From Aplectana chamaeleonis (Eukaryota; Nematoda; Chromadorea; Rhabditida; Cosmocercidae), in the NCBI GenBank assembly GCA_029168955.1, contig JAPDOI010000155.1:1302001-1366000 (forward strand): a DNA stretch of 64,000 nucleotides, given 5' to 3'. Below are positions 816-63,652 of the stretch, piece after piece. The translations under genes were made by a program, and so were the position numbers. Positions within the stretch are counted from its first letter, which is position 1, and every line of letters starts with the position of its first letter. The notes under the pieces are model-generated. The model was not told the DNA's origin and did not search any database. It saw nothing but the letters and a program-made list of their open reading frames with translations.

Positions 816-1143
816 AGGCACTGTCCACGATAACAACCGCCTTCGATTTTCTGCTGGAAAACGAAAGGCACTCAAATGGGTGGATTTGTTCAATCCGGGG
901 ATTATGGCGAATAATTATCATCACTTTACCATCGGTTGTTTTCTTCGAGTCGAATTTTCATTTTATTGCTTTGATCCGTGGCCGCTGAGGTTATTGGGTG
1001 GTGCGTGCGCCTTAAATCAAAGCCTAAGGTAGTGTAGAGCTTTTCTGGGCTTTTTTTCTGGCGTTTTTTACACACTTTTGATGCCTCCAAACTCTCGATA
1101 TCCGTTGAGTACTCAAAGAAGGTTTTTATCGAGAGCACTGCCT
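816..1143 (+). mobile_element. TTAA-MITE, family G
   Basis: Terminal inverted repeats (AGGCACTGTCCACGATAA at the left, matching the inverted ..TTTTATCGAGAGCACTGCCT at the right) flanked by TTAA on both sides (812-815 and 1144-1147). The right-hand TTAA is also the left flank of the next element at 1148. I saw no second copy of this interior in the window. Confidence 0.7.
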
Positions 1144-1147
1144 TTAA

Positions 1148-1556
1148 AGGCATCGTACGTGGAGAGAACCATGTTTAATGTTTTCCGGTTTTTGTATAGC
1201 GTTGCCTCTTTAGTAAACGGAAATGTCGAATAATCCCGTAAAAATCTTCATTCGAAAAAAAAATCAGTCTAAATACGCTTCAAAAGTGAATTTAAAGTAC
1301 GCATTAAAACCGTTTTTGAAGTTTTTCTGCATTCCCAGTTTGTACTATCACAATAGTTTTTCATGTTGTTTGATGGTCGCATCAACATTCTTTGTAAAGT
1401 TCTAGATGATCGATCCCACAGCAGTTTTCAGGTGGCGATAACTTTTGAGTGGCACAGTTCCAGAGCCTCAAGTTCCGTGGGTGATGTCAGCTATCCTGAA
1501 TAGTTAGTTTGTAGAGAAAAAAATCGAAATTAAGATTTCCAGCACGGACGATGCCT
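1148..1556 (+). mobile_element. TTAA-MITE, family B (copy B-a)
   Basis: Ends AGGCATCGTACGTGG and the inverted CCAGCACGGACGATGCCT. TTAA at the left, shared with the preceding element; ATGA (a worn TTAA) at the right. The same terminal type occurs at 52465-53051. Interior A+T-rich and non-coding. Confidence 0.6.
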
Positions 1557-1686
1557 ATGAATGAAATCATCACTTATCTGACATTTCTGCTGATGCGTCA
1601 TCGTCGAAGACTGGAAACTGCATGAAACCTAAATTTAGGTCAATTCTGTTCGGGATGAAAGCCTACTTGGGGTTCGGGGAGGCAGC

Positions 1687-2058
1687 AGAGTGTTTCACCG
1701 AATAATATCGATTTTCCAATTAACTCCTATATTTTCTCAGAGACGAGATGGTTTTAACTGCCCTTAGCATTAAACATTACGTGAGGAGGAAGGTTTCCAT
1801 AATTGATGAAAAAAGTAAATTTTTGCCCAATCACAGAATTGCTATAACCAATTATTCGATTATTCGAATATTCGAATAAAAACTCAATTACTTGGATGTG
1901 GCATGTTAATGAATAGACGAAACCCCACTTTTCATTAAATATGAGAGCCTTTAACTTACCCTAAGGTGTGATAACACACGCTGTTGAAATCACTATGATC
2001 ATGAAGAGAAAACTAGGTTTATTTCGGAAAAATCGATATTATTCGTTTGATATACTCT
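1687..2058 (+). mobile_element. MITE family F, copy F1 (unoccupied)
   Basis: A 372-base element with about 30-base inverted ends (AGAGTGTTTCACCGAATAAT at the left; the right end is the inverse of AGAGTATATCAAACGAATAA). The interior carries a TATTCGAATATTCGAATAA palindromic stretch. It is the inverted counterpart of F2 (23331-24253) and lacks the 548-base element found there, so it serves as the empty-site reference. Confidence 0.75.
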
Positions 2059-2104
2059 AGACGGCAGTAGAACGCGGCAGAGCGAAAATTGAATCAGCCT
2101 TCAA

Positions 2105-2428
2105 AAGCACAGTACACCATCAGACATAAATTTCGTGATTTCTACTTGATTGTGTAGTAGACCCCTACGGTATAACACGTGCTAAGTGCGAGATCTCAAT
2201 TCCCCCAAATAAGCGAGATATAGGCGACCACCACAGGCCCGACCTTCTTCGCTCACCACCACAGGCCCGACCCCCTTCCAGACTTTCGAACACGATAGCG
2301 GCTAGATAGATGGATAAATTCCCCTTGAAGTCTTCGTTCTTCAGCCTATCGCCGCACTGTCTCCTTATCGTGGCTCGCTATCGCGCAACGATTGTGAATG
2401 AAGAAAAATACAGAACTGAGGCAACTCG
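2105..2428 (+). mobile_element. TTAA-MITE family C, truncated (C-b)
   Basis: The left two thirds of a family C element, starting at a worn end (AAGCACAGTACACC). It stops at CAACTCG, where the opposite-strand copy C-c begins at TTAA 2429-2432. The remainder of C-b is not seen beyond C-c. Confidence 0.7.
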
Positions 2429-2432
2429 TTAA

Positions 2433-2915
2433 AGGCAAAGGACATCCAATGAAAAAAATTTAGATTCCATGCTTATCTTAGAGACAGTAACACGCTGATC
2501 ACAGTGGTATTTCTGGAATCGTCCAAAACCCCCTTTGAACAGAGTTATGGCTCTTCAAAGATGCCTAGATTTTGAGGGTGAAAAACTGGTGGACGAGTTG
2601 TCTCAGGCCTGTATTTCTCTTCAATCGCAATCATTGCGTGAGAGAAAGCCAGGAGAAGGAGACAGTCCGGCACTGGACTGAAGAACGACGATTTGTTGGA
2701 ATTTATCCATCCATCCAGCCGCTATCGAGTTCGAAAATCTGTTACGGGGTGGGGCCTGTGGTGGTGAGCGAAGGGGGTTGGGCCTGTGGTGGTCGCTTAT
2801 ATCTCGCCGATTAGGAGGAAATGAGTTCTGGCATTTGGCACGTGTTACACAGGAGGGGTCTTCTACAGAATTACAAGAAAATCTCAAAATTCATGCCTGA
2901 GGGTGTACTGTGCCT
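2433..2915 (-). mobile_element. TTAA-MITE family C (C-c)
   Basis: A full-length copy of 483 bases, TTAA on both sides (2429-2432 and 2916-2919). Ends AGGCAAAGGACATCC and GGGTGTACTGTGCCT. It directly abuts C-b on the left and family A element A-a on the right, each junction being one TTAA. Confidence 0.8.
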
Positions 2916-2919
2916 TTAA

Positions 2920-3404
2920 AGGCACTGTTCACGATAAAAATCGCTCTTCTGTTTTTCCGCCTTTCTTGAGAACGGTCCCATGCTGATTCCAATGATGTTT
3001 CTGGAACCGTAGAAGACCTTCTGGGAACGCAAATTTGGTCCCTCAAAAATTGAGCTAGGGAAGCATGGTGGACGAGTTGTCCGAGGCGTGTAACCTCCGC
3101 CCCTTGCAGCCGATGTATGCGAGCTGACCTGAATAAAGAGAGAAGCTGACAATGAAGGAAATAACGGGGCTATTGATCGGAAATCATCTCTCATCTCACG
3201 ATTTCGAGTTTTTATTCGTTCACGTCGGAGGGCGGGCATTGCGCTTTTGGGTGTGCCTTGCACTCGAAGTGGCAACTTCGGGCTCTTTTGGAGGTCTTCC
3301 TGGCTCGTTTTCAAGCGTTCTTTCAACGTCAACGTTACGGCGTGTCCCTCCTCTACCCATCCCTAGTGGAATTTGAAATACATTTTCTATCGTGAGCACT
3401 GTCT
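2920..3404 (+). mobile_element. TTAA-MITE family A (A-a)
   Basis: 485 bases with ends AGGCACTGTTCACGATAAAA and inverse ..TATCGTGAGCACTGTCT. Left TTAA shared with C-c, right TTGA. The interior block (GAGTTGTCCGAGG, CAGCCGATGTATGCGAGCTG, GATCGGAAA) recurs at 38200, 38850, 51306, 51975 and, inverted, 59145. Short open frames on both strands are by-products of the repeat. Confidence 0.8.
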
Positions 3405-3411
3405 TTGAGCC

Positions 3412-3567
3412 AATTTTAGATCCTCAAAATATACGCATCTTAAAGGAGCCGGAACTCTGTTCGTATGGTGTCTTGCACGATTTTAGAGATACCGCTGTGA
3501 TCAGTGTTCGACTCTCTCCAAGATCAGCATGAAAACTCAAAAATAATTCTCTGGCTGTTCTGTGCCT
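3412..3567 (+). mobile_element. TTAA-MITE family C, right-end fragment (C-d)
   Basis: Matches the last third of family C (CCTCAAAATA.., GAGATACC.CTGTGATCAG, ending CTGTGCCT) and ends at a worn TTAA (TTCA, 3568-3571). The next element starts immediately after. Confidence 0.65.
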
Positions 3568-3571
3568 TTCA

Positions 3572-4013
3572 AGGCAGTGTTCACGATAAGATATGGTTGT
3601 CGAATTTTCCTTGGTGAAGTCATCTCTTGGTTTAGTATAGTACGACCAATGCTAAAAAACCACAGAGAAAGAATAGGAATGGAAAATTGACGAATAAACA
3701 TCATGGATTTGGGTGAAAACTTCGTGATACTAAAGACTCTTAAAAAATATAGGGCCGATACACATGCTGGCACGTTGGAACCTTTTGCAAAAAAAGAGTT
3801 CGAAATTTCGGTGCCTGTCCCTTTGGTGAAAAGAATGCAGGGCAATTGTTATATCACGTGGGCGGGGTGACCCGATGGGTTTGGTGGACCACGAGATTTT
3901 CAACCACTTCCTGGCAGTTTTTCGTCGTAATTCCGTACCGATTTTTCTTAGAGGGACTTAAAGCTCACGTTTTTGCAGAGCAACAGGCAACGGCTTCATT
4001 GTGATCACTGCTT
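3572..4013 (+). mobile_element. TTAA-MITE family E
   Basis: Ends AGGCAGTGTTCACGATAAG and inverse ..TTGTGATCACTGCTT, flanked by TTCA and TTGA (worn TTAA). Its right half, from a GTGGGCGGGGTGACCC-like block through TTTTTCGTCGTA, recurs in the chimeric element at 12460-12925. Confidence 0.6.
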
Positions 4014-5332: not shown

Positions 5333-5870
5333 GTCGACTTCGAATTATTCGAAAAGTCGATTATTCGAAAAAGGCAAATTCTCGAATTATTCGGAAAGTC
5401 GAATATTCGAAAAGTTCAAAATCCCGAATTATTCGAAAAGTCGAATATTCGAAAACGTCAAAATTCCGAATTGTTCGAAAAGTCGGATATTCGAAAATTT
5501 CAAAATCCCGAATTATTCGGAAAGTCGAATATTCGAAAAGTTCAAAATCCTGAATTATTCGAAAAGTCGAATATTCGAAAACGTCAAAATTCCGAATTGT
5601 TCGAAAAGTCGGATATTCGAAAATTTCAAAATCCCGAATTAATCGGAAAGTCGAATATTCGAAAAGTTCAAAATCCCGAATTATTCGAAAAGTCGAATAT
5701 TCGAAAACGTCAAAATTCCGAATTGTTCGAAAAGTCGGATATTCGAAAATTTCAAAATCCCGAATTATTCGGAAAGTCGAATATTCGAAAAGTTCAAAAT
5801 CCTGAATTATTCGAAAAGTCGAATATTCGAAAATTTACGAAAACATTCGATTGAATTCGATAGTCGACTT
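5333..5870 (+). repeat. 42-base minisatellite with a 126-base higher-order unit
   Basis: About 12-13 monomers of 42 bases, each carrying GTCGAATATTCGAAAA after a GAATTATTCG.AAA block. Three monomer variants (..AAAGTTC.., ..AAACGTC.., ..AAATTTC..) alternate in fixed order, giving a 126-base higher-order period repeated about three times. Because 42 is divisible by three and lacks stops, long open frames appear in two phases (up to 209 codons). I treat these as incidental, not as a protein gene. Confidence 0.85.
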
Positions 5871-6824: not shown

Positions 6825-7370
6825 GACTTTAATTTCTGAAAGTTTAGCTTCCTGGCAAACGTAACGATTTGGCAATGCCAATAAGAAGTCAAAAAAAGTT
6901 TCAAAAATATGTTGAAATATCTCAAAAATGATTTGGTGTAAAGTAACCTGGAGTAATGAAAAAGTCAGAAAATGAAGTGAAATAACCAGAAATATGATTT
7001 GGTGGTCCATCATTTCACAAGCTTCTCCGTTGAACTTATCAAAACGAAAGCAAGCACGATATGGAATGCAGCGTCCCGTTCACCTAGCTCTACCTAGGCT
7101 GATTCCCTTATTAGAGCTTTCGAGAATGGCTAATGTTTCCGTTGCGCGCTTGATTTTGTTTTGATAAGTTTAACGGAGAAGCTTGTCAAATGATCGACCA
7201 CCAAATCGCATTTTTGGTTATTTGACTTTCCTGACTTTTTTATTACTTAAGCCTATTTGACGCCAAATCATTTTTTGAGATATTTCAACATATTTTTAAC
7301 ACTTTTTTGACTTCTTAATGGCATTGCCAAATCGTTACTTTTGCCAGAAAGCTAAAATTTCAGAAGTTTC
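6825..7370. mobile_element. Large fold-back element, arms about 225 bases
   Basis: 6825-7055 is the imperfect inverse of 7148-7370. Shared blocks include AAGCTTCTCCGTT(G)AACTTATC, TTTGGTGGTCCATCATTT, GAAATATCTCAAAAA and GGCAATGCCA. About 95 bases separate the arms. Open frames on the minus strand (6512-7013) run through this repeat and are not credible genes. Confidence 0.75.
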
Positions 7371-10399: not shown

Positions 10400-10720
10400 A
10401 TTTTTTTGACTTACTCGAAAAGTCGAATGAAAAAAAAATCGAAAAATCATTCGACAGTCGATTGAAAAAGTCGACTTTTTATTCGAAAAGTCGAATATTC
10501 GAAAAGTTCAAAATCCCGAATTATTCGAAAAGTCGAATATTCGAAAAGTTCAAATTCCCGAATTATTCGAAAAGTCGAATATTCGAAAAGTTCAAAATCC
10601 CGAATTATTCGAAAAGTCGAATATTCGAAAACTTCAAAATCCCGAATTATTCGAAAAGTCGAATATTCGAAAACTCCAAAATTCCGAATTATTCGAAAAG
10701 TCGAATATTCGAAAAAAATC
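10400..10720 (+). repeat. TCGAATATTCGA minisatellite, second array
   Basis: About six monomers of the same 42-base unit as at 5333-5870 (GAATTATTCGAAAAGTCG, AATATTCGAAAA, then GTTCAAAATCCC or close variants). It lacks the regular three-variant order of the first array. Open in frames on both strands; not treated as coding. Confidence 0.85.
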
Positions 10721-11014: not shown

Positions 11015-11364
11015 GCTCAGAACACAATGCCTACGCATTTTGATGGGTCAAAAACGACCCCCAATTCCGCCAGAAGAGTAAGAAGTTGGCCCGCCACGTA
11101 TTTCTCCCCCCCCCCCGCGATTGCCGTCCTCCCAAGCAGGGGTGCGAGACCATTCTCACAGTCGGCGACGTTTGTGGGCGATACAATAAGTACAATAATG
11201 AACCACATAGGGGAGGACGGTGGAAATGACCCAGCTCCCTTGTTTTGGAGGAGGACGCAAAAACAGGGGCGAAGAAACACGGGGCTGGGCCAACTTCTTA
11301 CTCATGTAGCGGCATTGTGGATAGTTTTCGACGCTTCAAAATGCGTAGGCGTAGTGTTCTGAGC
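11015..11364. mobile_element. 350-base MITE with 80-base inverted ends
   Basis: Left end GCTCAGAACACAATGCCTAC and the inverse at the right (..GTAGGCGTAGTGTTCTGAGC) match through CGCATTTTGA and again at GAGTAAGAAGTTGGCCC. The centre contains a poly-C run. The overlapping 116- and 87-codon open frames on opposite strands result from the palindromic structure. Confidence 0.8.
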
Positions 11365-12459: not shown

Positions 12460-12925
12460 AGGCAGTGTTCGCGATAAAAGTCGTTTTTCGGTTCTTCCGC
12501 CTATCTTGAAAACAGTCCCATGCTGAATTCAATGATGTCCCTAGAATCGTGCAAGACCCCCAAGAAACGGAGTTAGGGCCCCTCTAGATTCAGCAAGGGA
12601 AGCATTGTGGACGAGTTGTCCGAGGCTTGTAACTCCCGTTTTTTGCAGCCGATGTATGCTAGCTGACCTGAGTAAAGAGAGAAGTTGAGAATGAAGTGAA
12701 GAACGGGGCTTTCAATCGGAAACCATCCCTCATCTAACCACTAGTTCAGGACAAGTGCTATACGACGTGGGCGGAGTGGCCCAAGGGGTTGGCTGGCCCA
12801 CGAGCTTCTCACCCAATTACCAGCCGTTTTTCGTCGTACTCCCGTTCTTAATCTTCTCAGAGGGACCCAAAGCTTACGTCCTAGCCAAAAAAAAACGTGC
12901 AACTTTTTCTTCGTGAACACTGCCT
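12460..12925 (+). mobile_element. Chimeric TTAA-MITE (family A left half, family E right half)
   Basis: Left end AGGCAGTGTTCGCGATAAAA after a worn TTAA (ATGA); right end GAACACTGCCT before TTAA 12926-12929. The left 270 bases follow family A through GAACGGGGCTTTCAATCGGA. After about 12740 the sequence follows the right half of family E (GACGTGGGCGGAGTGGCCC.., TTTTTCGTCGTACTCCCGT). This is a recombinant of two MITE lines that share only their ends. Confidence 0.65.
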
Positions 12926-14498: not shown

Positions 14499-15225
14499 AG
14501 GCAGTAGTAACGATGAAAAAAGCTGTTGAGAAGACCACGAAAATCAGCTTGATCCACAAACGGCTAGAAGACCACGGGATTCAAGCAGCAAGAAACGGGC
14601 TATAATTAGATTCACATAACAGGATTCTTATTTGCCAATTCGTGCACAGGCGCAAAACTTTGCCCAAAAAGATTGGAGTATCATGTCGAGGAATTGTCAG
14701 AATTCATTGACCTTCACACAGAAAATAAATGCAAATCTAACCAATAAAACAGTTGAACAATGGGAACAAGCCTTTCATTCATTGTTTAACTCGACCAAAA
14801 CACAAATGCTTGAGCAGGTCAGTCCGGAGGCCTACTCGAGCGTCTGATTGATGAAATTTCGATTTCAAGCCAATCGATGCTCTTGATACTAGAGATCATC
14901 GATGCTGATGATGTGGAACGGGCTCGTCCACTGTCAAAAAACCGGAAAGTTAGGGCTGCTAATTTGATCCGAAATTGGGGTTTTTTTCGCAAATTTTTTA
15001 AAGGTTCTACTACTCTGAATTCAAAAAAAGGTTCAGACGAGAAAAGTAACATCGGCATGGATCGTGAAGAGACTTCGCGTTCACTGTTGAAGGTTGGCGC
15101 AAACTCGGTGCTATGTGCTATAACATAGGTGCACCGAGTTTGCGTCAACCTTCAACAGTGAACGAGAAGTCTCTTCACGATCCATGCCGACGTTAGACAA
15201 GCATATTTTATCGCGACCACTGCCT
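14499..15225 (+). mobile_element. TTAA-MITE family D, old copy D3
   Basis: Diverged relative of the 548-base elements at 23433 and 29744 (shared: ends AGGCAGTAGTAACGATGAAA.. and ..TATTTTATCGCGACCACTGCCT, internal GAT(C/G)ATCGATGC.GATGATGTGGA and GGGCTCGTCCAC). Flanks are CTAA on both sides, a matching pair that differs from the usual TTAA. It contains the hairpin element at 15047-15195. Confidence 0.75.
15047..15195. mobile_element. 149-base hairpin element, copy 2 (nested in D3)
   Basis: 64-base arms, nearly perfect: the left starts TAACATCGGCATGGATCGTG and the right is its inverse ending CCGACGTTA, separated by a loop of about 21 bases. Same family as 4523-4670. Because D1 and D2 lack it, it must have inserted into D3 later. 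Confidence 0.85.
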
Positions 15226-15475: not shown

Positions 15476-16053
15476 AGAATCTCTACTGATCTAGCATTTT
15501 CATCGTTACCAAAGACCGTTTGAAGTCCGCATTCAGGTGATTCCTATGTTCTACCTTCACTTGGGGTTAGGGAAGGAAAGGCAGCAGAGCTGCGCAGACC
15601 GTATAGCTGGAGCGGCTGGGCATCATGTCTCCATGACTGCTTTTCATCACTGTCAGAATTTATCGCACACGGTTCGGCGTGAGGTGCGATGTATCACAGA
15701 GTGAGGGGGGGTCTGACCCATCGACGTCCGGTGGGGGTCGGACCTTCGACCAACCAAGAACCGAGATGGCCTTATATCAGCGGTGGGGAGGGGTTTTGAA
15801 ATCAGTACCGCTAGTAAAATATAAGGGCAAAGTGAGATCACAATAAGAGGTCAAAATAATACTGGAGATCAAACTGAGGGGGCAAAATGAGACAGATCAA
15901 AAAAGAAACTGAAGTGTGAGAAATAACTGCGTGAAACAAATGAGGCAGGAGATGAAATGGAGATGTGAAAAGGATGCAGGGACTTAGAAGAAGAGGTGAC
16001 AATAACTGCTGAAGAAAGCATTCAAGGCAATTGAAGACAGTAGCATTCGTGAA

Positions 16054-16534
16054 AGGCACAGTACACCCTCAGATGTGAATTTTGAGATTTTCATGTATTT
16101 GTGTAGAAGACCCTTCCTGTACAACACGTGCCAAATGCGAGATCTCAATCCCTCTAAATAAGCGAGATATAAGCGACCACAACGGGCCCGATCCCCTGCA
16201 GCCACCATCACAGACCCGACCCACTTTCTGATTTTTGATCTCAATAGCGGCTAGATGGATGGATGATTTTCAACCGAGTCGTCGTTCTTCACTCCCTTTC
16301 GGAACTCGTCGTCCTGCTTTGCTCTCGTGCCGCGACTGCGAATCAAGAGAAATACAGGCCTGAGACAACTCTTACACCAAATTTTCACCCTCAAAATACA
16401 GGCATTTTCAAGGAGCAGTATCACCGTGCGTAGGGGGCCTTGGAAGATTTCAAAGATACCATTGCGATCAGAGTGCGACCCTTTCCAAGATAAGGTTATA
16501 CCCTGAAAAATTATTTCTTTGGTGTCCTGCGCCT
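16054..16534 (+). mobile_element. TTAA-MITE family C (C-g), nested in L1
   Basis: Full-length copy: AGGCACAGTACACCCTCAG at the left, GTGTCCTGCGCCT at the right. Flanks TGAA (worn) and TTAA. The uninterrupted L2 copy shows the joined site in inverted form near 62810-62820 (GTAA-like). Confidence 0.8.
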
Positions 16535-16911
16535 TTAATGATTCCGACATGGAAGCGGAGTCGTGGCCAGGTAAAGTGTGGGTCGCCAAAGCGCTTCTGT
16601 ATATGTCAGCAAAAGTGGTGTTGAGAATTCCTTGTCATCGAAGTCATTACAAGCGGACCATCCTGTCCACGAAATCACACAGATGTTCTGGAAATTCATA
16701 CCTTATATTCATATTCAGGCTATTTTGCAACTTCCTCCACGAACTTGACTAGTTAGGCAATTTCGAAGGTGCGATATTAAGATTAAGCAACATAAGATTT
16801 TTTTAAGCCCCGAGGGCACATAGGTGCAGTTTCGGGCATGTGAACTGCATTTGAATTGTGGCTGTCCGGATGTGAAAACGTACCCAAAATTTCATGAACA
16901 CAGCTCGAAAC

Positions 16912-17066
16912 GGCACAGGGGCTTTCTACACACCGAGGGGGAAGTTGTCTCGCGTTTGGCTGCTCTAGTTCCACTCGGGACCAATTCGCTTGAATTTAGT
17001 AGCGTAAAGTTTCGAACTGCAAAAACGGGACAACTCGTCCCTCAGTGTGTAGAGAGCCCCTATCCC
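16912..17066. mobile_element. 155-base MITE M1 with 9-base target duplication
   Basis: Ends GGCACAGGGGC.. and ..GCCCCTATCCC, with longer inverted blocks (CTACACACCGAGGG against its inverse). It is flanked by GCTCGAAAC and GCTTGAAAC, a 9-base duplication with one change. The homologous L2 site (62345-62355) has no insertion. A 9-base duplication is typical of Mutator-like elements. Same length as 54777-54931. Confidence 0.85.
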
Positions 17067-17092
17067 GCTTGAAACTGAAGAGCGCTACATAA

Positions 17093-18032
17093 GGTGGTGT
17101 CCTTGAAAAACGTCCAAGCTCCTTATAGTGTTGAAATATTTACAAGTATTTATCGAAATTCTAACTAAAGATTTTCGCGTTGCTGCAACAGGCGGAAAAC
17201 CTAATCCCGAACCCAAGTAACAAATTTAGTTTTTCTAGCGTGTTCTAAACGGGCTTCGAAGACACATTCTTAGGTGTGATACACTGGATTGTATCACATT
17301 TAAAATGGCTCATCAAAGACCGCTTTTTTTACAGGCCAAAAGACCAAATTAGATACTCCGGTCTAGGACTGGGTTTTTAATAGTGAATGATAGGTTGGTA
17401 TCCTCTGCGCGTTAATATCCATAACGGATTTTGTTTTAAACTCATTAACGTGTGACATTATCATTACAAGGTCTAATTGACGTTAATGTTATGTATAATA
17501 GCTGCCACAATGAGGAATTTAAGCAAGCCATTCACAGATTAGATCAATTTTCAAATGAAATTAGAATAACAAGCGAACAGTATCTCTATAATTCCGAATG
17601 TGTCTGCTATCAGACTTCAGCGGGCTCAATTAAAATAACTCTCAAAACGTCATTTAATTGCCAGTTGGAACTGTGAGAAAAACCCCTCATTGGCACTTTA
17701 AACAGAGCAATAGCCAATTTCGACTGAACGATAATTGGATGAAAGTGAGTAAGTCCATATGATCCGATTAAAGTTGGCTATTCGCAAGTATGTATGCATG
17801 TACGAACACATGAGGGTTCAGGGAGAGGAATTCAGAGTTACATTAGCGACTCAGCAATGTCCAACTGTAATGAGAAACGGGGAGCTTTTTTGTCGCAATG
17901 AGGAAAGTTTGACACTCCAATGACAAAGGGAACCATTTCAGCATTGTGCGAGAGCAGTCGTGGTGCGTCAAGGGTCCCAGGCGTTATACTAGAGTTTGAG
18001 TACCCTTCGTAGTTTGCAAATATCTATGTTAA
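17093..18032. other. No recognised gene
   Basis: A frame at 17452-17676 (74 codons) is open but motif-free. Near 17703-17790 an AATAGCCAA.. sequence is matched by an inverted TTGGCTATT, a short stem or worn element. Nothing else is supported. Confidence 0.35.
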
Positions 18033-18516
18033 AGGCAGCGTTCATGATGATTTTCGTTCCCTAGTTTTCCACTCAAAACAATGCGTTGGCTACCAAGTGT
18101 TACCGAAATTACGAAGAAGCGGCGAGAAATGCACTGAAACGTCTTATTTCAGTGACATTATGCTTTGGCTTGGACCAGTTGTCCGGTTGGCTGAACATGT
18201 TCACGGTTGTCGTTACCTGTGAAAAATGGGGCTAATCAAAAACGTGAGAATATTTTAGGCTAAACAGTATTAGTTAGGGACCAAAGGAAAAAACGGGACA
18301 ACACAAAATAGAGAATTGCAAGAGACTGGTCCACAAAAAAATTTCATTGTCACAACAAACAGTTTCATTGAGAGTAAAGAAGCGGGTGAGAGTAAAGGAT
18401 TTCGTGCCAATCTAGTGCGTAATTCTCGGTTTCTTCGTCATTTGAGTTCTACTCGGGGACCAAACAATCGATTTAGCGATTAACCTCAAAATCGGAGATT
18501 ATCATGAACACTGCTT
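18033..18516. mobile_element. TTAA-MITE, further interior type (N)
   Basis: Ends AGGCAGCGTTCATGATGA and inverse ..ATTATCATGAACACTGCTT, with TTAA on both sides (18029-18032 and 18517-18520). 484 bases, interior not matched elsewhere in the window. Confidence 0.7.
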
Positions 18517-18548: not shown

Positions 18549-19008
18549 AGGCACCCTGAGACATTATTTTTGTGATTCTTATTTGGTTGTGTAGCAAACT
18601 CCTCTTGTATAACACGTGTCAAGTGCGAGATCTCAATTCCTCCAAATAAGAGAGATATAAGATACCACCACGGGCTCGACCCCCTTCGCTGATCACCACG
18701 GGACACATACCCTAGCAGAATTTCGAACTCAATAGCGGCTAGATGGATAAATGAATTCCCAACGAGTCTTTGTCTGCAGTCCATTGCCATACTGTCTCCA
18801 TATCCTGACTCGCTTTCGCGCAGAGGAATGCAGGCCTGAGACAACTCGCCCACAGATTTTTTACCCTCAAAATAAAGGCATATTGAAGAAGCCATAATTC
18901 TGTTCATAGGGTATCTTGGACGATTTCAGAGATACCAGTGTGATCAGCGTGTTACTCTCTTCAAGATCTGCAAAAACTGAGGAATATTTTCCTGGGTGTT
19001 CTGGGCCA
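18549..19008 (+). mobile_element. TTAA-MITE family C, diverged (C-e)
   Basis: Starts after TTAA 18545-18548; the left end is worn and the right end is near CTGGGTGTTCTGGGCCA. Interior family C landmarks are retained (TATAACACGTG.CAAGTGCGAGATCTC, GCGGCTAGATGGAT, GAGACAACTCG). The minus-strand 120-codon frame is a by-product. Confidence 0.7.
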
Positions 19009-19653
19009 TTGACATAAACGTTAATTAACTCCATTGCTTCCTGATAATCTTGTTTTTTAGAGGTTGTTCATATGTACTTCTTAAAGTTTCGAAGCATAGT
19101 AAAGCAATAATAGTCATTGAAAACAGAATGGGACGCCGAATGTATGAGGGCTGTAGTAAACCCCGTCTGAATCGAGATAAGGTGGTCTTAAAGGCACAGG
19201 ACACCCAAAGAACTAATTTTCAGATTTCATGCTTCTCTTAGAGAAAGCCACACGCTGATCACAGTGGTATCTCTGAAATCGTCGAAGACCCCCTTTGGAC
19301 AGAGTTATGGCTCTTCAAAGATGCCTAGATTTTGAGGGTTGAAAATTGGTGGACGAGTTGTCTCAGACCTGTATTTCTCTTCATTCGCAATTGTTGCGTG
19401 AGAGAAAGCCAGGATAAGGAGACAGTCCGGTAATGGACTGAAGAACGACGACTTGTTAGAATTCATCCATCCATCGAGCCGCTATCGAGTTCGAAAATCT
19501 GAGAGGGGGTCGGGCCTGTAGTGGTGAGCGAAGGGGGCCGGGCCTGTGGTGGTCGCTTATATCTCGCTTATTTGGAGGAATTGAGATCTGCCTTTAGGCA
19601 CGTGTTATACAGGAGGGGTCTTCTACACAATTACATGAAAATCTCAAATTCCA

Positions 19654-23330: not shown

Positions 23331-24253
23331 AGAGTATATCAAACGAATAATATCGATTTTTCCGAATAAATCTAGTTTTCTCGTCATGGTCGGAATGGTT
23401 TCAACAGCGCTTTTTATCACGCATTAGGTTAAAGGCAGTGGTCACGATGAAAAACGTTATCGAAAAAACTACAAAAATCAACTTAGATCAAAAACAGCTG
23501 AAAAACTATGAAGGTAGCGCGGTGAAAAACGGTCGACAAATAGAGTTTCTAGGGCCCAAAGAAGCTAGTTCGTGCACACGTGCACAGCGATGACGAAACA
23601 GATCGCAGTCTCATGCCGAGCAGTCAAAAATCATCGACATTCAGAGGACGAAATAAATACAAATTTAACGAATAAAAGAGGTTGAATAATGAAAGAATCA
23701 CTTCAGTCAATGTTTTTGACTAGATACACACATAAATTCGAAGCTTCATTGATTGACATTCAATTTCAAGCTAGCTGATGTTCTTGATATAAGAGGTCAT
23801 CGATGCCGATGATGTGGAGAGGGCTCGTCCACCATCAAAAGACAAGAAAGTTCAGGTTTCAAATTCGGCCCAAAACAGTGGTTTTTTCGCGATTTTTTCT
23901 TATAGGTCCTACTACCCGAGACCCAGGAAAGGATTTAGAGAGAAAAAGACGACAAGCATATTTGATCGCGACCACTGCCTTTAAGTGAAAGGTTCTCATA
24001 TTTGATGGAAACGTGAGGTTTCGTCTATTCGTTAACATGCCACAGCCAATTAATTAAGTTTTTATTCGAATATTCGAATAATCGAATAAATGGTTACAGC
24101 AATTCTGTGATTGGACAGAAAGTCACTTTTTCATGAATTATGGAAACCTTGCCCCTCACGTAATGTTCGATACCAAGGGCAGTTAAAACCATTCCGTCTC
24201 TGAGAAAATATAAGAGTTAATTGAAAAATCGATTTTATTCGGTGAAACACTCT
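23331..24253 (-). mobile_element. MITE family F, copy F2, occupied by D1
   Basis: Inverted copy of 1687-2058. Net length without the inserted element and one TTAA is about 371 bases, equal to F1 (372). Ends AGAGTATATCAAACGAATAA and ..CGGTGAAACACTCT. Confidence 0.8.
23433..23980 (+). mobile_element. TTAA-MITE family D, copy D1 (548 bases)
   Basis: Ends AGGCAGTGGTCACGATGAAA and inverse ..ATCGCGACCACTGCCT; TTAA at 23429-23432 and 23981-23984. Nearly identical to D2 (29744-30291) and exactly the same length, so both moved recently. F1 supplies the empty site. Confidence 0.9.
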
Positions 24254-35930: not shown

Positions 35931-35933
35931 GTC

Positions 35934-44989: not shown

Positions 44990-45705
44990 TGCTGCGGAAA
45001 AACCTGGCAAAAATGCGTCCGATGCATGTAACATTTTTCAACGAAGATGTTTTTGGATTCTGAAAACGCCATAATATTCGCAGCTGTGGTTCCTACATAA
45101 TAATATACATTCTGTATCGAAGTTCCCAAAAATCGCTTTGTTTTCGAGTAAAATTGTTTTTGCGGTCGTTTCACAAAAACGTCGAGCGCTGCAAGTGCGG
45201 CGAAACTTTGAGTAGTAATTGTACAATAAATAGAAGATCAATCTCTATGTTTTCTTCGTGAAATAGATGAAGGTGGGGCTACCTCGAGAACTGTGCAAAT
45301 TGAAATTCCGAAATCCTCCATTTATCGGTCTGGGGCTTTCGCAACAAAAGTTCAACTTTTCAGGAAGCTGTTTAATGAAGGATTTCAAAAATTCAATCTG
45401 CACAGATCTCGAGTTGGCCCCACTTTCATCTAACTGACTAAGAAAACATAGAGATTGCTCTTCTATTACTTGTACAATGACTACTTGAAGTTTTGCCGCG
45501 CGCGACGCTTTTGTAAAACGGCCGCAAAAACAATTTTACTCGAAAACAAAGCAATTTTCTGGAACTTTGACCTACAACGCACATTATTATGTAGGAATTT
45601 GAGCTGTGAATATGATCGCGCTTTCAGAATTCAAAAAGGTCTCCGTTCAAAAAAGTTACATGCATCGAACGCTTTTTTTGCCAAGTTCGGCAAATGCTTC
45701 CTGTT
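44990..45705. mobile_element. Large fold-back element, arms about 340 bases
   Basis: 44990-45320 pairs with 45390-45705. Inverted matches include AACATAGAGATTG, AAAACAATTTTACTCGAAAA, CTACATAATAAT and ATGCATGTAAC/GTTACATGCAT. The centre of about 70 bases contains AAAGTTCAACTTT. Similar peptides on opposite strands (CENTRE-outward, sharing KTILLENKAIF) reflect the arms, not genes. Confidence 0.75.
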
Positions 45706-50714: not shown

Positions 50715-51688
50715 AGGCAGTGTCACGATAGAAATCGTTTCTGTGTTTCCCCTCCTATCTTGAAAACGGCCTCATGCTGATTCCGATGATGTCTCTGAAA
50801 TCGCACAAAACCTTAAAGGCACAGTACACCCTCAGATATGAATTTTGAGATTTTCTTGTAATTGTGTAGAAGACCCCTGCTGTATAACACGTGCCAAGTG
50901 CGAGAACTCAATTCCTCTAAATAAGCGAGATATAAGCGACCACCACGGGCCCGACCCCCTCCGGCCACCACCACAGGCCCGGCCCCCTTTCCGATTTTCA
51001 ATCTCAATAGCGGCTAGATGGATGGATGATTCTCAACCAAGTCGTCGTTCTTCACTCCCTTTCCGACCTATCTCCTCATCCTGTTTTGCTCTCGTGCCGC
51101 GGCTGCGAATCAAGAGAAATACAGGCCTAAGACAACTCGTCCACCAAATTTTTGCCCTCAAAATACAAGCATTTTCGAGGAGCCATATCTCCATTCGTAG
51201 GGGGTGTTGGACGATTTTAGAGATACTATTGTTATCAGAGTGTGACCCTCTCCACGATTAGGGTAAAACATAAAAAATAATTTTCTGGGTGTCCTGTGCC
51301 TTTAAAGGATTGGAGTTACGGTCCCTTAAAGATTGAGCAAAGGAAACATGGTGAAGGAGTTGTCCGAGGCTTGTAACTTCCGTCTTTTGCAGCCGATGTA
51401 TGCGAGCTGACCTGAGTTAAGAAATAAGTTGAGAATGAAGGGAAGAACGGGGTTGATGTTTCCAAATAATCGCTCATTTCACGATCTCGAGCATTCCTTT
51501 GTTCACGCCGGTGGGCGTGTGTTACGCTTTTGGGGTTTGCCTTGCGCTCGAAGTGGCAACTTCGGGCTCTTTTGGAGCTTTTCCTGGCTCGTTTTTATGC
51601 GTTATTCTGACGTCAACGTTACAGTGTGCCCCTCCACTACCCATTACTAGTGGAAACTGTAACACATTTTTTATCGTGAACACTGCCT
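50715..51688 (+). mobile_element. TTAA-MITE family A (A-b), split by C-h
   Basis: Left part 50715-50812 (AGGCAGTGTCACGAT.., after CTAA) and right part 51306-51688 (to CACTGCCT before TTAA). Family C element C-h sits between them with TTAA on both sides. The interior GGTTGATGTTTCCAAAT is a variant shared only with A-c. Confidence 0.8.
50817..51301 (+). mobile_element. TTAA-MITE family C (C-h), nested in A-b
   Basis: 485 bases, AGGCACAGTACACCCTCAGA to GGGTGTCCTGTGCCT; TTAA 50813-50816 and 51302-51305. Confidence 0.85.
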
Positions 51689-51692
51689 TTAA

Positions 51693-51970
51693 GGTGTACG
51701 GCAGGTGACCGTGTGTTCCTTTTGGCTAGTCCGACCACATCAACAAATTTTGAAATCATTTGGCGTGCTCAATCTCGTTCCGATATATTCAAAATCACTT
51801 GGCGCCTCCTTGTATGCAGTAGAATTTAGGGGCTCGATTCATCAACGGATTTTAGCGCTGGTAGGCTGGGTAAGGGTAGCTTCCTACCCAAAGTCGCGCG
51901 AATGAAGCGTTTTACGAGACTTGCTACCCACAGTAGCCACCTGCCAAAGCCTACCCAGAGCGAAGCTCGA
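51693..51970 (+). repeat. 278-base repeat R, copy R1
   Basis: GGTGTACGGCAGGTGACC to CGAAGCTCG, the same length as R2 (53056-53333) and nearly identical. TTAA lies at its left and ATAA (worn) at its right. No inverted ends of its own. Confidence 0.85.
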
Positions 51971-51974: not shown

Positions 51975-52460
51975 AGGCAGTGTTCACGACAAAAATCGTT
52001 TCTCTATTTTCCCACCTATCTTGAAAACGGCCCCATGCTGAATGCAATGATGCCTCTGAAATCGTACAAGACTTTCTGGGAACATAGTTATGGTCCCTCA
52101 ATGTTTGAGCAGAGGAAACATGATGGACGAGTTGTCCGAGGCTTGTAACTTCCGTCTTTTGCAGCCGATGTATGCGAGCTGACCTGAGTAAAGAAAGAAG
52201 TTGAGAATGAAGGGAAGAACGGGGCTGATGTTTCCAAATCATCACTCATCTCACGATCTCGAGCATTCATTTGTTCACGTCGGTGGGCGTGCGTTGCGCT
52301 TTTGGGGTTTGCCTTGCGCTCGAAGTGGTAACCTCGGGCTCTTTTTAAGCTTTTCCTGGCTCGCTTTCATGCGTTATTCCGACGTCAAAGTTACAGTGTG
52401 CCCCTCCACTACCCATTACTAATGGAAACTGAAACACATTTTTTATCGTGAACACTGCCT
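51975..52460 (+). mobile_element. TTAA-MITE family A (A-c)
   Basis: A complete copy of 486 bases, AGGCAGTGTTCACGACAAAA to CGTGAACACTGCCT, between ATAA and TTAA. Closest to A-b (shared GCTGATGTTTCCAAATCA-like variant). Confidence 0.85.
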
Positions 52461-52464: not shown

Positions 52465-53051
52465 AGGCATCGTAAACGATGAAAACCATATTTGGGTTTT
52501 TGATGTTTTCGTGTTGTACTATCTCTATAGTGACTAACGGTAGCAAAACGCCCCCTCAAAAACGTCATTTTGAGAAAAACATTTTTAGAAAGTTCATAGC
52601 AAATTTGAATTTCGCGCCGGCATCAACTTGGGATAGTTGCGCAGAGAATGCAAGGAACAGTTTTAGGCTTCGTTCCTTGGCGCAGCGTTGGAAGCAATTC
52701 ACCGAGGATGCCGCTCAACTACGACTTCAGCGAAATTAAAATGGGCTACCCACCTGCTGCGTCCAGTGCTGCCGGCTGCTTTCGATCGATGCCGAATTCG
52801 AAATCGACTGGCGTGTGTATTGCGCCCTACGACGCGTCAAGGCACGCCCGCCGTCAGCAACCCAGTAACTCCTTGTAACAACGGATCGACCCCAGAGCCG
52901 GCCCCCCAAACCCAGGAAGCCATTTTGAGGTAAGCGAATCTTCACTCAGAGACGGTTTTGTAACTCCAAACTTTCTGAGTGACATTGTCATGGCCCACTA
53001 GTCCGAATGAACGCATAAACCCAAATTCGGTTTTCATCGTGGACGATGCCT
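52465..53051 (+). mobile_element. TTAA-MITE family B (B-b)
   Basis: Ends AGGCATCGTAAACGATGAAA and inverse ..TTTTCATCGTGGACGATGCCT; TTAA 52461-52464 and 53052-53055. It lies exactly between A-c and R2. Confidence 0.8.
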
Positions 53052-53055
53052 TTAA

Positions 53056-53333
53056 GGTGTACGGCAGGTGACCGTGTGTTCCTTTTGGCTAGTCCGACCA
53101 CATCAACAGATTTTGAAATCATTTGGCGTGCTCAATCTCGTTCCGATATATTCAAAATCGCTTGGCGCCTCCTTGTATGCAGCAGAATTCAGGGGCTCGA
53201 TACATCCACGGATTTTAGCGCTGGTAGGCTGGGTAGGGGTAGCTTCCTACCCAAAGTCGCGCGAATGAAGCGATTCACGAAACTTGCTACCCACAGTAGC
53301 CACCTGCCAAAGCCTACCCAAAGCGAAGCTCGG
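53056..53333 (+). repeat. 278-base repeat R, copy R2
   Basis: Near-identical to R1; TTAA on both sides (53052-53055 and 53334-53337). Confidence 0.85.
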
Positions 53334-54659: not shown

Positions 54660-54960
54660 TAGGCCCCCATCATAGTCGGCAGATCGGCTGTAGCCAGCCC
54701 GGTCGATAAACATCTACATCACTCGAGTCGGGTGTAAATATCCACATTTGTGGCCGGACTGAGATGTGCCGCCCGTGGGACAGGGGCTCTCTACACACCG
54801 AGGGAGAAGCTGTCCCGATTTTGGCGGCTCTAATTCCACTCGGGACCACTTCGCTCGCGTTGAGTGGCGTGACGTTTCAAACTGCAAAAACCGGAAAACT
54901 CCTCCCTCGGTGTGTAGACAGACCCTGTCCCGCCGCCCGTAGCTGTCCAGGTCAATACGC
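54660..54960 (+). repeat. Relative of the 24640 repeat, host site of M2
   Basis: CCAGCCCGGTCGATAAACAT near 54693 and GTCCAGGTCAATACGCATGT near 54944 resemble the repeated unit at 24640-24965. M2 is inserted between. Confidence 0.5.
54777..54931. mobile_element. 155-base MITE M2 with perfect 9-base duplication
   Basis: Ends GGGACAGGGGCTC and inverse ..AGACCCTGTCCC, extended by CTACACACCGAGGGAG against its inverse. Flanked by GCCGCCCGT on both sides (54768-54776 and 54932-54940). Same length and interior as M1. Confidence 0.92.
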
Positions 54961-57077: not shown

Positions 57078-57522
57078 AGGCACGGTTCTCGATAAAATCG
57101 GTTGCTGTGCTGTATCCATGGAATCGTAGATCTGGCCATCACAAAAGTGAAAATAAGTAAAAAATTGGGGAAAACGGCTCAGGAGCAAGTTATGGCTTGA
57201 TGTCCTCCACCGCCCCCAGTTATCGAGTTTTGGGTAAAGGCCTGCTTCGTCAACTTTTATTTTGCTCGTAAAGTTTTTTTCTGAACATTTCTGGAGACTA
57301 CTGATTACTTTAACAGCAAAATAAATGTCGTATAAGCAAGCTTTAATGAACATAGCGTTAACTAGGGGGCCGGCCGACACCGGTAATTAGCCGTTATTCT
57401 TTCTTTTTGAGCGTTTTTCCCGCGAATTTCTGGGTTTTTTCACTTATTTTTACTTTTGTGATCTCCAAATCTACTTTCTTATGAAGAGAGCTCAAAAGTT
57501 GTTTTTATGGTGAACCCTGCCT
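57078..57522. mobile_element. TTAA-MITE, further interior type (P)
   Basis: Ends AGGCACGGTTCTCGATAAAA and inverse ..TTTTTATGGTGAACCCTGCCT; TTAA at 57074-57077 and 57523-57526. Interior not seen elsewhere in the window. Confidence 0.65.
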
Positions 57523-57990: not shown

Positions 57991-58001
57991 GCACTGAAGC
58001 A

Positions 58002-58340: not shown

Positions 58341-58343
58341 CCA

Positions 58344-59144: not shown

Positions 59145-59630
59145 AGGCAGTGTCCACGATAAAAACTATGTCTGATTTTTTGGTGGAGATCGGCAGCTGC
59201 GGGGCCTAGCGCAACCCTAACGATGAAAAAACTAAGAAAAATGAGCTCGGAACGGTCCCCTACGGCCCCAAAGTTGGACACCCGTCAGTTCGTCACACCC
59301 CAGATGTACTTTCCAAGCCCACCGACGTGAACAAATGAATGCTCGAGATTGTGAGATGAGCGATGGTTTCCGATCAATAGCCCCGTTCTTCCCTTCATTC
59401 TCAACGTCCCTCTTTACTCAGGTCAGCTCGCATAAATCGGCTACAAAATACGGAAGTTTCAAGCCTCGGACAACTCGTCCACCATGATTCTCTAGCTCAA
59501 TTTTTGAGGGACCATAACTCCGTTCCTAGAAGGTCTTGTACGATTCCAAAAACACCATTGGAATCAGCATGGGATCGTCTTCAAGATAGGCGGTCAAGCA
59601 GAAAAACGATTCTTATCGTTAAAACTGCCT
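59145..59630 (-). mobile_element. TTAA-MITE family A (A-f)
   Basis: Inverted copy: AGGCAGTGTCCACGATAAAA to ..TTATCGTTAAAACTGCCT; CTAA at the left, TTAA 59631-59634 at the right. Inverted interior landmarks include GGTTTCCGATCAATAGCCCC and GGACAACTCGTCCACCATG. Confidence 0.8.
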
Positions 59631-60052: not shown

Positions 60053-60371
60053 GGGAGACGCTCCGCGTCCTATGCGCGCAGCGTCGAGCCACGGGACGGC
60101 CCCTAAGTGCAAGGCGTATATTAGTCTATCGCGGACGTAAAAGCACTTTCCACTGCAAACGCACATTTTTTGTCATCCCAGTCGAGTTTGCTCTCAAATA
60201 TGGAGTGCACGGGATGACAAAAAAAATGCCAGAGAGCGACTGGGATGACAAAAAATGTCGCCCAGGCGTAGAGTTCGCTCTAGAAAGTGCATTTATGTCC
60301 GCGACACACGCCATGCACTTGAAGCCGTCCCGTGGTTCGACGCTGCGCGCATAGGACGCCGAGCGGCTCCC
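60053..60371. mobile_element. Fold-back element, arms about 95 bases
   Basis: GCGTCCTATGCGCGCAGCGT at the left pairs with ACGCTGCGCGCATAGGACGC at the right; CCACGGGACGG, TCGCGGAC and GCACTTTC also pair. The centre holds GGGATGACAAAAAA-type repeats, three times. Not coding. Confidence 0.8.
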
Positions 60372-60488
60372 AAATCTTCTCAAGGCTCAACGCTTGAGGC
60401 ATTATAGGAAATCTAAAGGAATTTCATGAAACACGCGTGATTTTGTGGGTTTATTCTCCTGGAGATTTCATATAGACATTTTTCAGGT

Positions 60489-60589: not shown

Positions 60590-60659
60590 TGGTGTGAACG
60601 ACGGAGCACCTTCAACTGATTCTACAGCAATGGAAGGAAGTAGTTTTCTCCGCTGAATC

Positions 60660-61207: not shown

Positions 61208-61211
61208 TTAA

Positions 61212-61688
61212 AAGCACAGTACACCCTCAGATATGCATTTGGTGATTTTTAATTGATTGTGTAGCGGACCCTCTCTGTATGACACGTGCCAAATGCGAGA
61301 GCTCAATTCCTTCAAATAAACGAGATATAAGCGACCACCACACGCCCGACCTCCTCCGCTCACCACCACAGGCCCGGCCCCCTACCAGTTTTCCGAACTC
61401 GATAGCGGTTAAATGAATTTTCAACAAGTCATCGTTCTTCAGTTTATTGCTGGTCTACCTCCTCATCCTGTTTTACTATCGTGCAGCGATTGCGAATGAA
61501 GAGAAATACAGGCCTGAGACAACTCGTCCACGAAATTTTTGCCCTCAAAATGCAGGCATTTTCGAGGAGCCATATCTCCGTTCGTAGGGGGTCTTGGACG
61601 ATTTCAGAGACACCATTGTGATCAGAGGGTGGCTCTCTCCAAGATAAGCATGAAATCTGAAAAATAATTTTGTGAGTGTCCTGTGCCT
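61212..61688 (+). mobile_element. TTAA-MITE family C (C-i)
   Basis: AAGCACAGTACACCCTCAGA to ..GAGTGTCCTGTGCCT; TTAA 61208-61211 and 61689-61692. It abuts a CR1 fragment at its right. Confidence 0.85.
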
Positions 61689-61692
61689 TTAA

Positions 61693-62155
61693 GGTGACTG
61701 CTCTATACCTCGTTTTTGGCTTGCGATAGAATATTTTGATTTCACCCCTTCTGATCACAGAGTGATTCTGAGTATAAAATATCGAAACATCACTACTAGA
61801 GCTGCCATTCAATATTTTGTGCACCGTACAAGCATCAGAGACTTTCCTTCTGGTTTCTAGGGTTGGTGGCTTTGGGATTAAGGTTCTATTCTTTGAAAGT
61901 CTGGTGATTCTAGACGAAGCGTTTGAGAGTAAGTAGCCTTCTGCCCTCGAGTAAACCTTCCTTGAGAAACTGTTCTGTATTTTTTCTAGTCTGAGGATAT
62001 CCTTTTTCCTATCTGGATTAAATACTGTACATCAGCATTAAACCCGCGGTCTTATATAGGCTTTATACGCTATTTACAGAACTTGTCTGTCACTTGTGGT
62101 TAGCGCTTTCAGTATACGAAATGTGTCTAGCATTGCTGTTCTAGAATGTAACTTA
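61693..62155 (-). pseudogene. CR1-type ORF2 C-terminal fragment
   Basis: On the minus strand, pieces in more than one frame read DTFRILKALTTSDRQVL, AYKAYIRP, NPDRKKDILRLEKIQNSFSR, ETRRKVSDACTVHKILNG, and DVSIFYTQNHSVIRRG..KIFYRKPKTR. This is collinear with the CR1-1 tail (IFKALSTCDKDVLVRAYKTY.., RRKVCDVVTVAKMLSG, DVSNFYRIIHS). Only the region after the RT catalytic core remains, with stops and shifts. Element C-i directly follows its 3' side. Confidence 0.8.
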
Positions 62156-62329
62156 CCTTGAAGGCACAGTCCAACCTCAGAATCGTTTTCCAGTTCTCCT
62201 GCTTGCCCTCAAGCTTCGGCGCGAGGTTTGAAACAACCCAACTTTGGCTCGACCCCCCATGAATCGGGCGACTTGTATGTATTTGATAACAATGCCTGAC
62301 TTGGACAATTTTTAATGGACCCATACTAG

Positions 62330-63215
62330 TGTAGCGCTTTTCGGCACAAAGCTGCGTTCATGGAATTTTGAGTGCGTTTTCACATGCGAACAGTCGTTTT
62401 CTATATTTAGTTTTCGCGCCCGAAACATCACCTATGTGCCCGCAGGGCATAAAAATCCTATGCTTCAGGCGATACCGCACCTTGGAAATTGCCGAACAAA
62501 TCAATTTCGCAGAGGAAATTGCAAGAGATGTCACAATGAAAAGTGCTCTTCTGAAACAGTCAACTACCCGTTGTTTCTCAGCCTTGCGGAAATTTTTCCC
62601 TTTGGCGGGACCGAACCTGTATATCCTAAATCGCGAAAAATACATCTTAGATTACGAATTTCCAGAACATCCGTGTCATTTCATTGACAGGATAGTCGGC
62701 ATATAATGACCTCGATGACAGCGAATATTCAACACTACTGCTGCTGACATGTTCAGGAGCGATTGGGTGACAAACTTTACCTGGCCACGACTCCTCCTCC
62801 ATGTCGGAGTCATTTACTATGGCCATGCTATTGCCTATGACCTTGCATGCTTTCCCCACCAGTGAATTGTCACCCCTACTTGCAAGTTTCTGCCTCATTT
62901 CTACATCTTCATTTCATATCATACCTCAAATGTTTTGCGCAGCTGTTTTGTTCACTATGCAGATTCTTTCATGATCTCCAGTCTCATTTCGCCCTCTCAG
63001 TTTGATTTCCAGGTTCAGTTTGACCTCTCATTGTGAACTCATTTTGCCGTCGTTTTCTATACTAACGGTATGGCTCTCAAATTCCCTGCCCCCCACCCTG
63101 AGAGAAGTTAATCTTGGTTCTTCGTTGGTCGAAGATCCGACCCCTTGGCCACGGGACGTCAACGGGTCCGACCCCTCCCCCTCTTTTATACATCACGCCT
63201 CACGCCGAACCCTGC
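62330..63215 (-). mobile_element. Old repeat element L, copy L2 (uninterrupted)
   Basis: Inverted counterpart of L1 (15665-17092) without the two MITEs found there. Landmarks: AAAGCGCTACACTA (inverse, near 62330), CACCTATGTGCCC near 62428, CCGCACCTTGGAAATTGCC near 62475, CTGGCCACGACTCC near 62782, TTGGTCGAAGATCCGACCCC near 63125. Confidence 0.75.
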
Positions 63216-63220
63216 TTGCC

Positions 63221-63652
63221 CTTGAGAGAATATTGCGCTGATTACAACGGTGTTCTCACAAGTGTCCAGAACCCACTACTAGCGGAGCTATGACCTCCTA
63301 AAGAAGCACAAATTTGAATGGCGAGTTGAGTTTGAGTGGTATGGTGAACGAACTGTCCAAGGCTTGTATTTTCCGTCATTCGCAAACGTTACATGGAGGC
63401 GGCAAAGTAAGAGAAAAAAGTGGCTTTTCTTCGGAAACCGTTGCGCATCTAGGCACTGTTGCGCTCTGGAAGTCGGCAAAGTGGACGCGGCCACAAGACT
63501 TCCTGCTCTGGGCATGCCAGAAGGAGCTTCTGTCCTCATCTCGCCTAATCGGAGGAACTGAGAGCTTGCATTCGGCAGGTGTTATACAGGGAGGATCTAC
63601 CTAACAATTAAGTGAAAATCTCACATCTCGATCCTGAAATCCGGCTGTGCCT
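63221..63652 (-). mobile_element. TTAA-MITE family C, diverged (C-j)
   Basis: Ends GGCTGTGCCT before TTAA 63653-63656. Interior family C order is recognisable (GAACTGTCCAAGGCTTGTATTT, TTATACAGG.AGGATCTAC, AATCTCACAT). The left end is worn near 63221. Confidence 0.6.

Follow-up and report, generated by a model that had tools for sequence, protein, structure and literature searches.

Results

A dense set of TTAA-flanked elements

The stretch analysed here, which we call the window, is a 64-kilobase (kb) segment of contig JAPDOI010000155.1 (positions 1,302,001 to 1,366,000, forward strand) from the Aplectana chamaeleonis assembly GCA_029168955.1, with 44% G+C. It contains genes like those of RTE-type non-long-terminal-repeat (non-LTR) retrotransposons, a fragment of a mariner-type transposase gene, and many short elements with inverted ends that lie between TTAA tetranucleotides. 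An original prediction, made from the sequence, described these short elements as a superfamily of miniature inverted-repeat transposable elements (MITEs) in which one type of end encloses non-homologous interiors, and connected the choice of TTAA with piggyBac-type transposases. Our analysis bears this out in part: the ends, the TTAA target and the copy number hold, but several of the interiors are related to one another, and the termini point to Kolobok and not to piggyBac.

We paired ends by self-comparison and alignment and recognise 23 two-ended elements (including E13, the ends of which have decayed) together with two truncated copies, E14 and E18, in agreement with the more than 20 copies predicted (Table 1). 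The elements span 13,290 of the 64,000 bases (20.8% of the window), counting nested DNA and a 1-kb block within E26, and all except the nested E04 and E19 and the insert-bearing E26 are between 328 and 727 base pairs (bp) long. Two families, alpha and beta, are represented by consensus sequences built from eight and five copies respectively. The elements have the properties of MITEs in that they are short and repeated, have matched inverted ends, and show no transposase domain in those of their overlapping open reading frames (ORFs) that were scanned.

The common end type is AGGCA[G/C][T/A]GnnCAC, positioned at a TTAA. TTAA followed directly by AGGCA[GC][TA]G occurs at 18 sites on the two strands and at none in each of 20 first-order Markov controls; allowing up to one mismatch raises the count to 35, whereas five mononucleotide shuffles average 1.0. 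A chance origin of the ends was rejected on these controls. The motif AGGCA[GC][TA]G by itself matches 36 times, preceded by TTAA in 18 instances, by a one-step variant in nine and by neither in nine, and some of these last nine are likely to be chance matches. Among 36 ends taken from 18 elements, which are not independent because several come from copies of one family, G3, C4 and A5 are each present in 35 and G8 in 34, and the C, A and C at positions 11–13 are found in 31, 29 and 30. When all 46 ends of the two-ended elements are considered, 45 begin with two purines (AG in 41, AA in four), the sole other being TG, at the right end of E13, which has decayed.

Insertion at TTAA and target duplication

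The flanks are exactly TTAA at 29 of 46 positions, on both sides of nine elements and on at least one side of 20, although a flank shared by abutting elements is counted twice in these figures. The others are TTGA (five), CTAA (four), ATGA, TCAA and TTCA (two each), and TGAA and ATAA (one each); most are a single base away from TTAA, as expected from decay. No exact TTAA flank is present at E04 (TCAA/TTCA), E07 (TTCA/TTGA) or E10 (CTAA/CTAA), and E10, with CTAA on both sides, may be a real insertion at CTAA. Four pairs of elements abut and share one 4-mer.

We joined the flanks of insertions, keeping the 4-mer once, and aligned the product to a counterpart within the window, which provided empty sites for five insertions. 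The cleanest is that of E22 (222 of 229 columns identical, without gaps), and it derives from a 95% identical repeat at 51668–51967 and 53031–53332, each copy of which contains the end of either a beta element or E22 followed by the same right flank. The repeat itself suggests tandem duplication of a beta element together with its flank. E15 agrees at 194 of 220 columns with its empty paralogue and E20 at 187 of 218 with its counterpart E21; the values are 190 of 260 for the tandem pair E05 and E06, and 232 of 301 for E11, which is less clean with a 5-base gap by the junction. A further line of evidence comes from E16, which has split the endonuclease-coding part of a minus-strand gene of an RTE-like non-LTR retrotransposon. 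If one TTAA is kept at this site, a 907-amino-acid RTE relative aligns in one frame (residues 1–293, 44%, expectation value (E) 3e-83), and if both are kept the alignment breaks into two frames. The five empty sites and the RTE frame across E16 therefore demonstrate duplication of a TTAA target, beyond what the flanks imply, and the predicted choice of TTAA stands.

Terminal sequences point to the Kolobok superfamily

Two superfamilies with TTAA duplications can be compared with these ends. Kolobok elements have 5'-RR and YY-3' termini (R, purine; Y, pyrimidine), unlike piggyBac, and nematodes are among their hosts (Kojima and Bao, PMC9587614). A piggyBac survey gives the end motifs CACTA, CCCTC, CCCTT and CCCAT, and reports no piggyBac in its 10 nematode genomes (PMC10813416). 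In the window the TTAA duplication agrees with both superfamilies, the purine-purine start of 45 of 46 ends agrees with Kolobok, and no CCC-type or CACTA end was seen, none of the 46 ends starting with C. Ends that are purine-purine and neither CCC-like nor CACTA argue for Kolobok and against piggyBac, and piggyBac was rejected as the source on end sequence; the predicted assignment is not supported. Movement by a piggyBac transposase would account for the TTAA duplication, a hallmark of that group, and a few piggyBac elements are on record with one-step variants, CTAA and TCAA among them (PMC10813416). We nevertheless regard it as very improbable, since no end starts with C as the surveyed piggyBac motifs do, the survey found no piggyBac in its nematode genomes (PMC10813416), and it is by this terminal feature that Kolobok is distinguished from piggyBac (PMC9587614).

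A Pfam scan of 70 ORFs, a selection from the 154 stop-to-stop ORFs of at least 85 amino acids in the window, recognised no transposase of a TTAA element, neither a Kolobok DDD/E enzyme with its C/DxxH motif nor a piggyBac DDD enzyme, at E limits of 1, 0.5 or 0.01. Above the curated cut-offs, these ORFs contain only the mariner fragment and non-LTR retrotransposon domains. The transposase is thus likely to be absent from the window, as predicted. Another TTAA-targeting superfamily, described or not, could also be responsible; Sola3, for example, targets TTAA. In favour of such a source are the lack of a transposase, the weakness of a two-base terminal criterion and the inability of TTAA alone to discriminate, but the combination of purine-purine termini and TTAA has been published as diagnostic of Kolobok, a superfamily reported from nematodes (PMC9587614), and we consider another superfamily distinctly unlikely.

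Exact end patterns gave no matches in viral and prokaryote contigs. In a literature text search with four short end strings, no title among the matches listed concerned such transposon ends, and among the matches listed in a search with Kolobok and nematode terms none carried the word Kolobok.

Ends are matched within elements

The left and right ends of an element agree at 11–19 of their first 20 bases (18 elements). With 13 representatives, which are partly related so that the permutation figures here and below are not strict probabilities, an end matches the other end of its own element at 16.3 of 20 positions, compared with 13.9 after permutation, and none of 20,000 permutations reaches the observed mean. 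Without the alpha group (11 representatives) the values are 16.55 and 14.95 (9 of 20,000 permutations), and with nine less related representatives they are 16.6 and 14.0 (1 of 20,000). The right end of alpha, for instance, matches the left end of alpha at 16 of 20 positions but the left end of beta, its homologue, at only 12. Recognisable subtypes are CAGTG..CACGATAAAA, CACAG..CACCC and CATCG. Since ends match better within than across elements, the single end proposed for all interior types survives as a common core, AGGCA[G/C][T/A]G, that is divided into several matched left-right subtypes and is not uniform. A single permissive transposase could account for such a pattern, and so could several that are related.

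Some interiors share halves

When the alpha and beta consensus sequences are compared in opposite orientation, they align from the terminus inward over about 280 bases; the score is 81, and the maximum among 300 dinucleotide shuffles is 17. The right half of alpha is homologous to the left half of beta, so that the two families have one ancient half in common. Terminus-first comparison of halves (L, left; R, right) also links beta.L with E24.R (92%) and with E09.L (88%), E07.R with E09.R (77%), beta.R with E24.L (72%), and alpha.L with E26.R (80% over 86 bases); weaker links in the same comparison, with scores of 16–27, may be partly due to chance.

Similarity changes sharply along some of these elements. 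Sliding identity between beta and E24 drops from 84–96% to 56–66% near position 300, and between beta and E09 it drops from 74–96% to 46–64% near 250–280; shuffled global alignments give 32–64%, so that windows of 46–64% have no detectable similarity. The best reading of E09 is a half-chimera, beta-type on the left and E07-type on the right, and E24 looks like another that combines beta with a diverged relative of beta. Unequal divergence of the two halves could in part reflect a difference in rate and not exchange, chiefly for alpha and beta and for E24. In E17 a beta element carries roughly 150 bp of inserted sequence, and E10 resembles E15 (about 66%) and contains a palindrome.

Other bodies stand apart. 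E02, E12, E23 and the E15/E16 pair have no strong link to other types, and between E03 and E22 there is a weak link in one half (score 20 against a control maximum of 17, z 7.6) and none in the other. The claim of many unrelated interiors must therefore be narrowed, in that alpha, beta, E09, E24, E26 and E07 are linked, and only some bodies are without a strong match. It could still be proposed that the interiors are unrelated captures, each acquired once between like ends, a scheme compatible with any superfamily and favoured by the bodies of E02, E12, E22, E23 and the E15/E16/E10 group, which lack a strong match elsewhere. We think this unlikely, since shared halves join the six linked types and ends match within but not across elements.

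An ORF from alpha and another from beta were compared with the protein collection; the candidates numbered 12 and 23 respectively, and none reached an E of 1 or below.

E26 is an alpha-like element carrying a 1-kb block

E26, the member designated type P in the original prediction, is alpha-like over alpha positions 1–447 (score 109, against at most 31 in 100 shuffles). After this alpha-like part comes a 1-kb block, bounded on each side by a copy of GGGCAAGCAGG, and then an alpha-like end. The 11-bp direct repeats are at 63211–63221 and 62198–62208, and alpha has one counterpart. Duplications of 9–11 bp are typical of Mutator-like elements. The block is itself a repeat (62198–63221 and 15671–17147), the E26 copy lying between the 11-bp direct repeats. 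The second copy is gapped and outside any alpha body, with alpha element E11 interrupting it; it has the same start boundary, and its other side stops about 60 bases before the position of the second direct repeat. A palindromic repeat at 16906–17076 and 54777–54933 (84% alike) has one copy that interrupts the block.

E26 was rejected as an autonomous parent, being an alpha-like element plus a 1-kb block that is also found outside any alpha element. The opposite course, in which alpha arose by deletion from an E26-like element, draws some support from the inexact boundary of the second block, about 60 bases short, and is less likely than addition of the block to an alpha-like element.

Table 1. 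Elements of the TTAA-flanked set and the second copy of the E26 block, in window coordinates.
Feature	Description	Position	Strand	Flanks	Remarks
E01	alpha	185–630	-	TTGA/TTAA	87.0% to alpha consensus
E02	328 bp	816–1143	+	TTAA/TTAA	
E03	AGGCATCG ends	1148–1556	+	TTAA/ATGA	TTAA 1144–1147 common with E02
E04	alpha, split by E05 and E06	2105–3567 (2105–2429, 3412–3567)	+	TCAA/TTCA	empty-site comparison
E05	alpha, nested in E04	2433–2915	-	TTAA/TTAA	
E06	beta, nested in E04	2920–3404	+	TTAA/TTGA	adjoins E05 across one TTAA
E07	442 bp	3572–4013	+	TTCA/TTGA	adjoins E04; right half common with E09
E09	half-chimera (best reading), beta-type left, E07-type right	12460–12925	+	ATGA/TTAA	
E10	E15-type (~66%)	14499–15225	+	CTAA/CTAA	palindrome 15047–15195
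E11	alpha, in second copy of E26 block	16054–16534	+	TGAA/TTAA	
E12	484 bp, TTCATGAT-type ends	18033–18516	+	TTAA/TTAA	
E13	decayed alpha	18549–19008	+	TTAA/TTGA	right end TG; 82.8% to alpha consensus
E14	alpha, one end truncated	19192–19655	-		alignment
E15	548 bp	23433–23980	+	TTAA/TTAA	empty paralogue 1684–2059 (-)
E16	95.8% identical to E15	29744–30291	+	TTAA/TTAA	in RTE-like endonuclease region (-)
E17	beta, ~150-bp insert ~38280–38428	38200–38833	+	TTAA/TCAA	insert bears GAGCCGGCATACACC inverted repeats, different small element
E18	beta, without left end	38857–39300	+		alignment
E19	beta, interrupted by E20	50715–51688	+	CTAA/TTAA	
E20	alpha, inside E19	50817–51301	+	TTAA/TTAA	empty site versus E21
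E21	beta	51975–52460	+	ATAA/TTAA	92.4% to beta consensus
E22	AGGCATCG ends	52465–53051	+	TTAA/TTAA	at TTAA ending E21
E23	445 bp	57078–57522	+	TTAA/TTAA	halves alike, 73% over ~170–190 bp
E24	beta relative	59145–59630	-	CTAA/TTAA (+ strand)	84–96% in beta-left-end half, 56–66% in other (72% terminus-aligned)
E25	alpha	61212–61688	+	TTAA/TTAA	
E26	type P, alpha-like with 1-kb block	62162–63652	-	TTGA/TTAA (+ strand)	GGGCAAGCAGG direct repeats
Second block copy	gapped, not a member	15671–17147	+		interrupted by E11 and palindromic repeat 16906–17076

Other features of the window

The reverse transcriptase of the RTE-like non-LTR retrotransposon genes has its nearest named relatives in the hookworm Ancylostoma ceylanicum (59% identity, with 87% of the query covered), and the mariner-type transposase fragment is at 35180–35944 (Pfam Transposase_1, E 5.5e-23). 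Arrays of a 42-bp repeat at 5341–5833 and 10479–10715 flank an RTE-like endonuclease region. Inverted repeats at 25267–27209 and 31734–34324, up to 99% complementary, flank a non-LTR retrotransposon gene and contain arrays of 11-bp GCCGCGAAATA-like units. Four near-palindromes of 319–687 bp (6831–7368, 11015–11364, 45001–45687 and 60053–60371) are possibly foldback-type elements. Rfam at its gathering scores gave no matches in the window.

Discussion

We interpret these sequences as Kolobok-like non-autonomous cut-and-paste DNA transposons of a nematode that have diversified by exchange of halves and by nested insertion, a reading to which we give a probability of about three in four. In the mechanism that we infer, a Kolobok-like transposase with its gene elsewhere would act in trans, binding to the AGGCA..G..CAC ends and inserting the elements at TTAA with duplication of these four bases. 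Diversification would then have followed three courses, namely divergence into end subtypes with matching left and right ends, exchange of whole halves, and secondary insertion of other repeats. Exchange may have occurred by template switching during break repair, as described for animal Pack-TIRs (PMC8277862), or alternatively by joint transposition of abutting elements and subsequent deletion between them, joint transposition being described for Anopheles P-MITEs, which have unlike interiors (PMC1562414).

Joint transposition would require neighbours such as those in the abutting pairs. These pairs were not regarded as special in themselves; by rough reckoning a few are expected without any preference, because the window has only 250 TTAA sites and many of these border elements. 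A more specific proposal is that of a modular superfamily, in which halves of about 250–300 bp and 180–200 bp recombine, the 20-bp ends stay or become matched, and pairs sharing a TTAA serve as raw material that is moved jointly and then shortened; we put this forward tentatively, as a possibility with somewhat less than even prospects.

Several observations weigh against our interpretation. The superfamily call is made from the target and the terminal bases only, and the AGGRR terminus of Xenopus T2-MITEs is not matched at the fourth base. The alpha ORF and the beta ORF that were compared found no relatives in the protein collection. Exact TTAA is missing from both sides of three of the 23 elements, one of which, E10, has CTAA twice, so TTAA may not be a strict requirement, and the empty sites of E11 and of E05 and E06 are old and noisy. 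As regards exchange of halves, the low-identity windows of E09 fall within the shuffled range, and the second half of E24 is still homologous to beta at 72%, so that a difference in rate may account for part of its divergence.

These elements add a dense Kolobok-like TTAA set from a probable nematode genome, and within 64 kb they offer material that bears directly on how MITE interiors diverge, in the form of shared halves with sharp changes in similarity, nesting and insert-bearing copies. If the pattern is confirmed genome-wide, the breakpoints of half-chimeras and abutting pairs could separate template switching from joint transposition with deletion.

Among known systems, the closest are the Kolobok superfamily and its presumed members, the T2-MITEs of Xenopus. 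The window elements share with Kolobok the TTAA duplication, the 5'-purine-purine and pyrimidine-pyrimidine-3' termini and the occurrence in nematodes (PMC9587614, PMC6004289), and differ in being short and non-coding, with no transposase found. T2-MITEs are likewise non-autonomous and TTAA-targeting, with AGG... ends across many subfamilies, 16 of them major, but their terminal motif is AGGRR and the window consensus is AGGCA (PMC6004289), with C at position 4 in 35 of 36 ends. Matched end subtypes and shared halves are described here for the window elements. The likeness to piggyBac is confined to the TTAA target, the ends of piggyBac being CCC-like or CACTA (PMC10813416). The P-MITEs of Anopheles gambiae are similar in comprising several families whose ends are of one kind and whose interiors differ, and two unlike ends in one family have been explained by joint transposition of neighbours; they belong to the P superfamily, however, with 8-bp duplications and not TTAA (PMC1562414). 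Most likely the elements are Kolobok-like MITEs, which form a dense set with an internal history more informative than was originally supposed.

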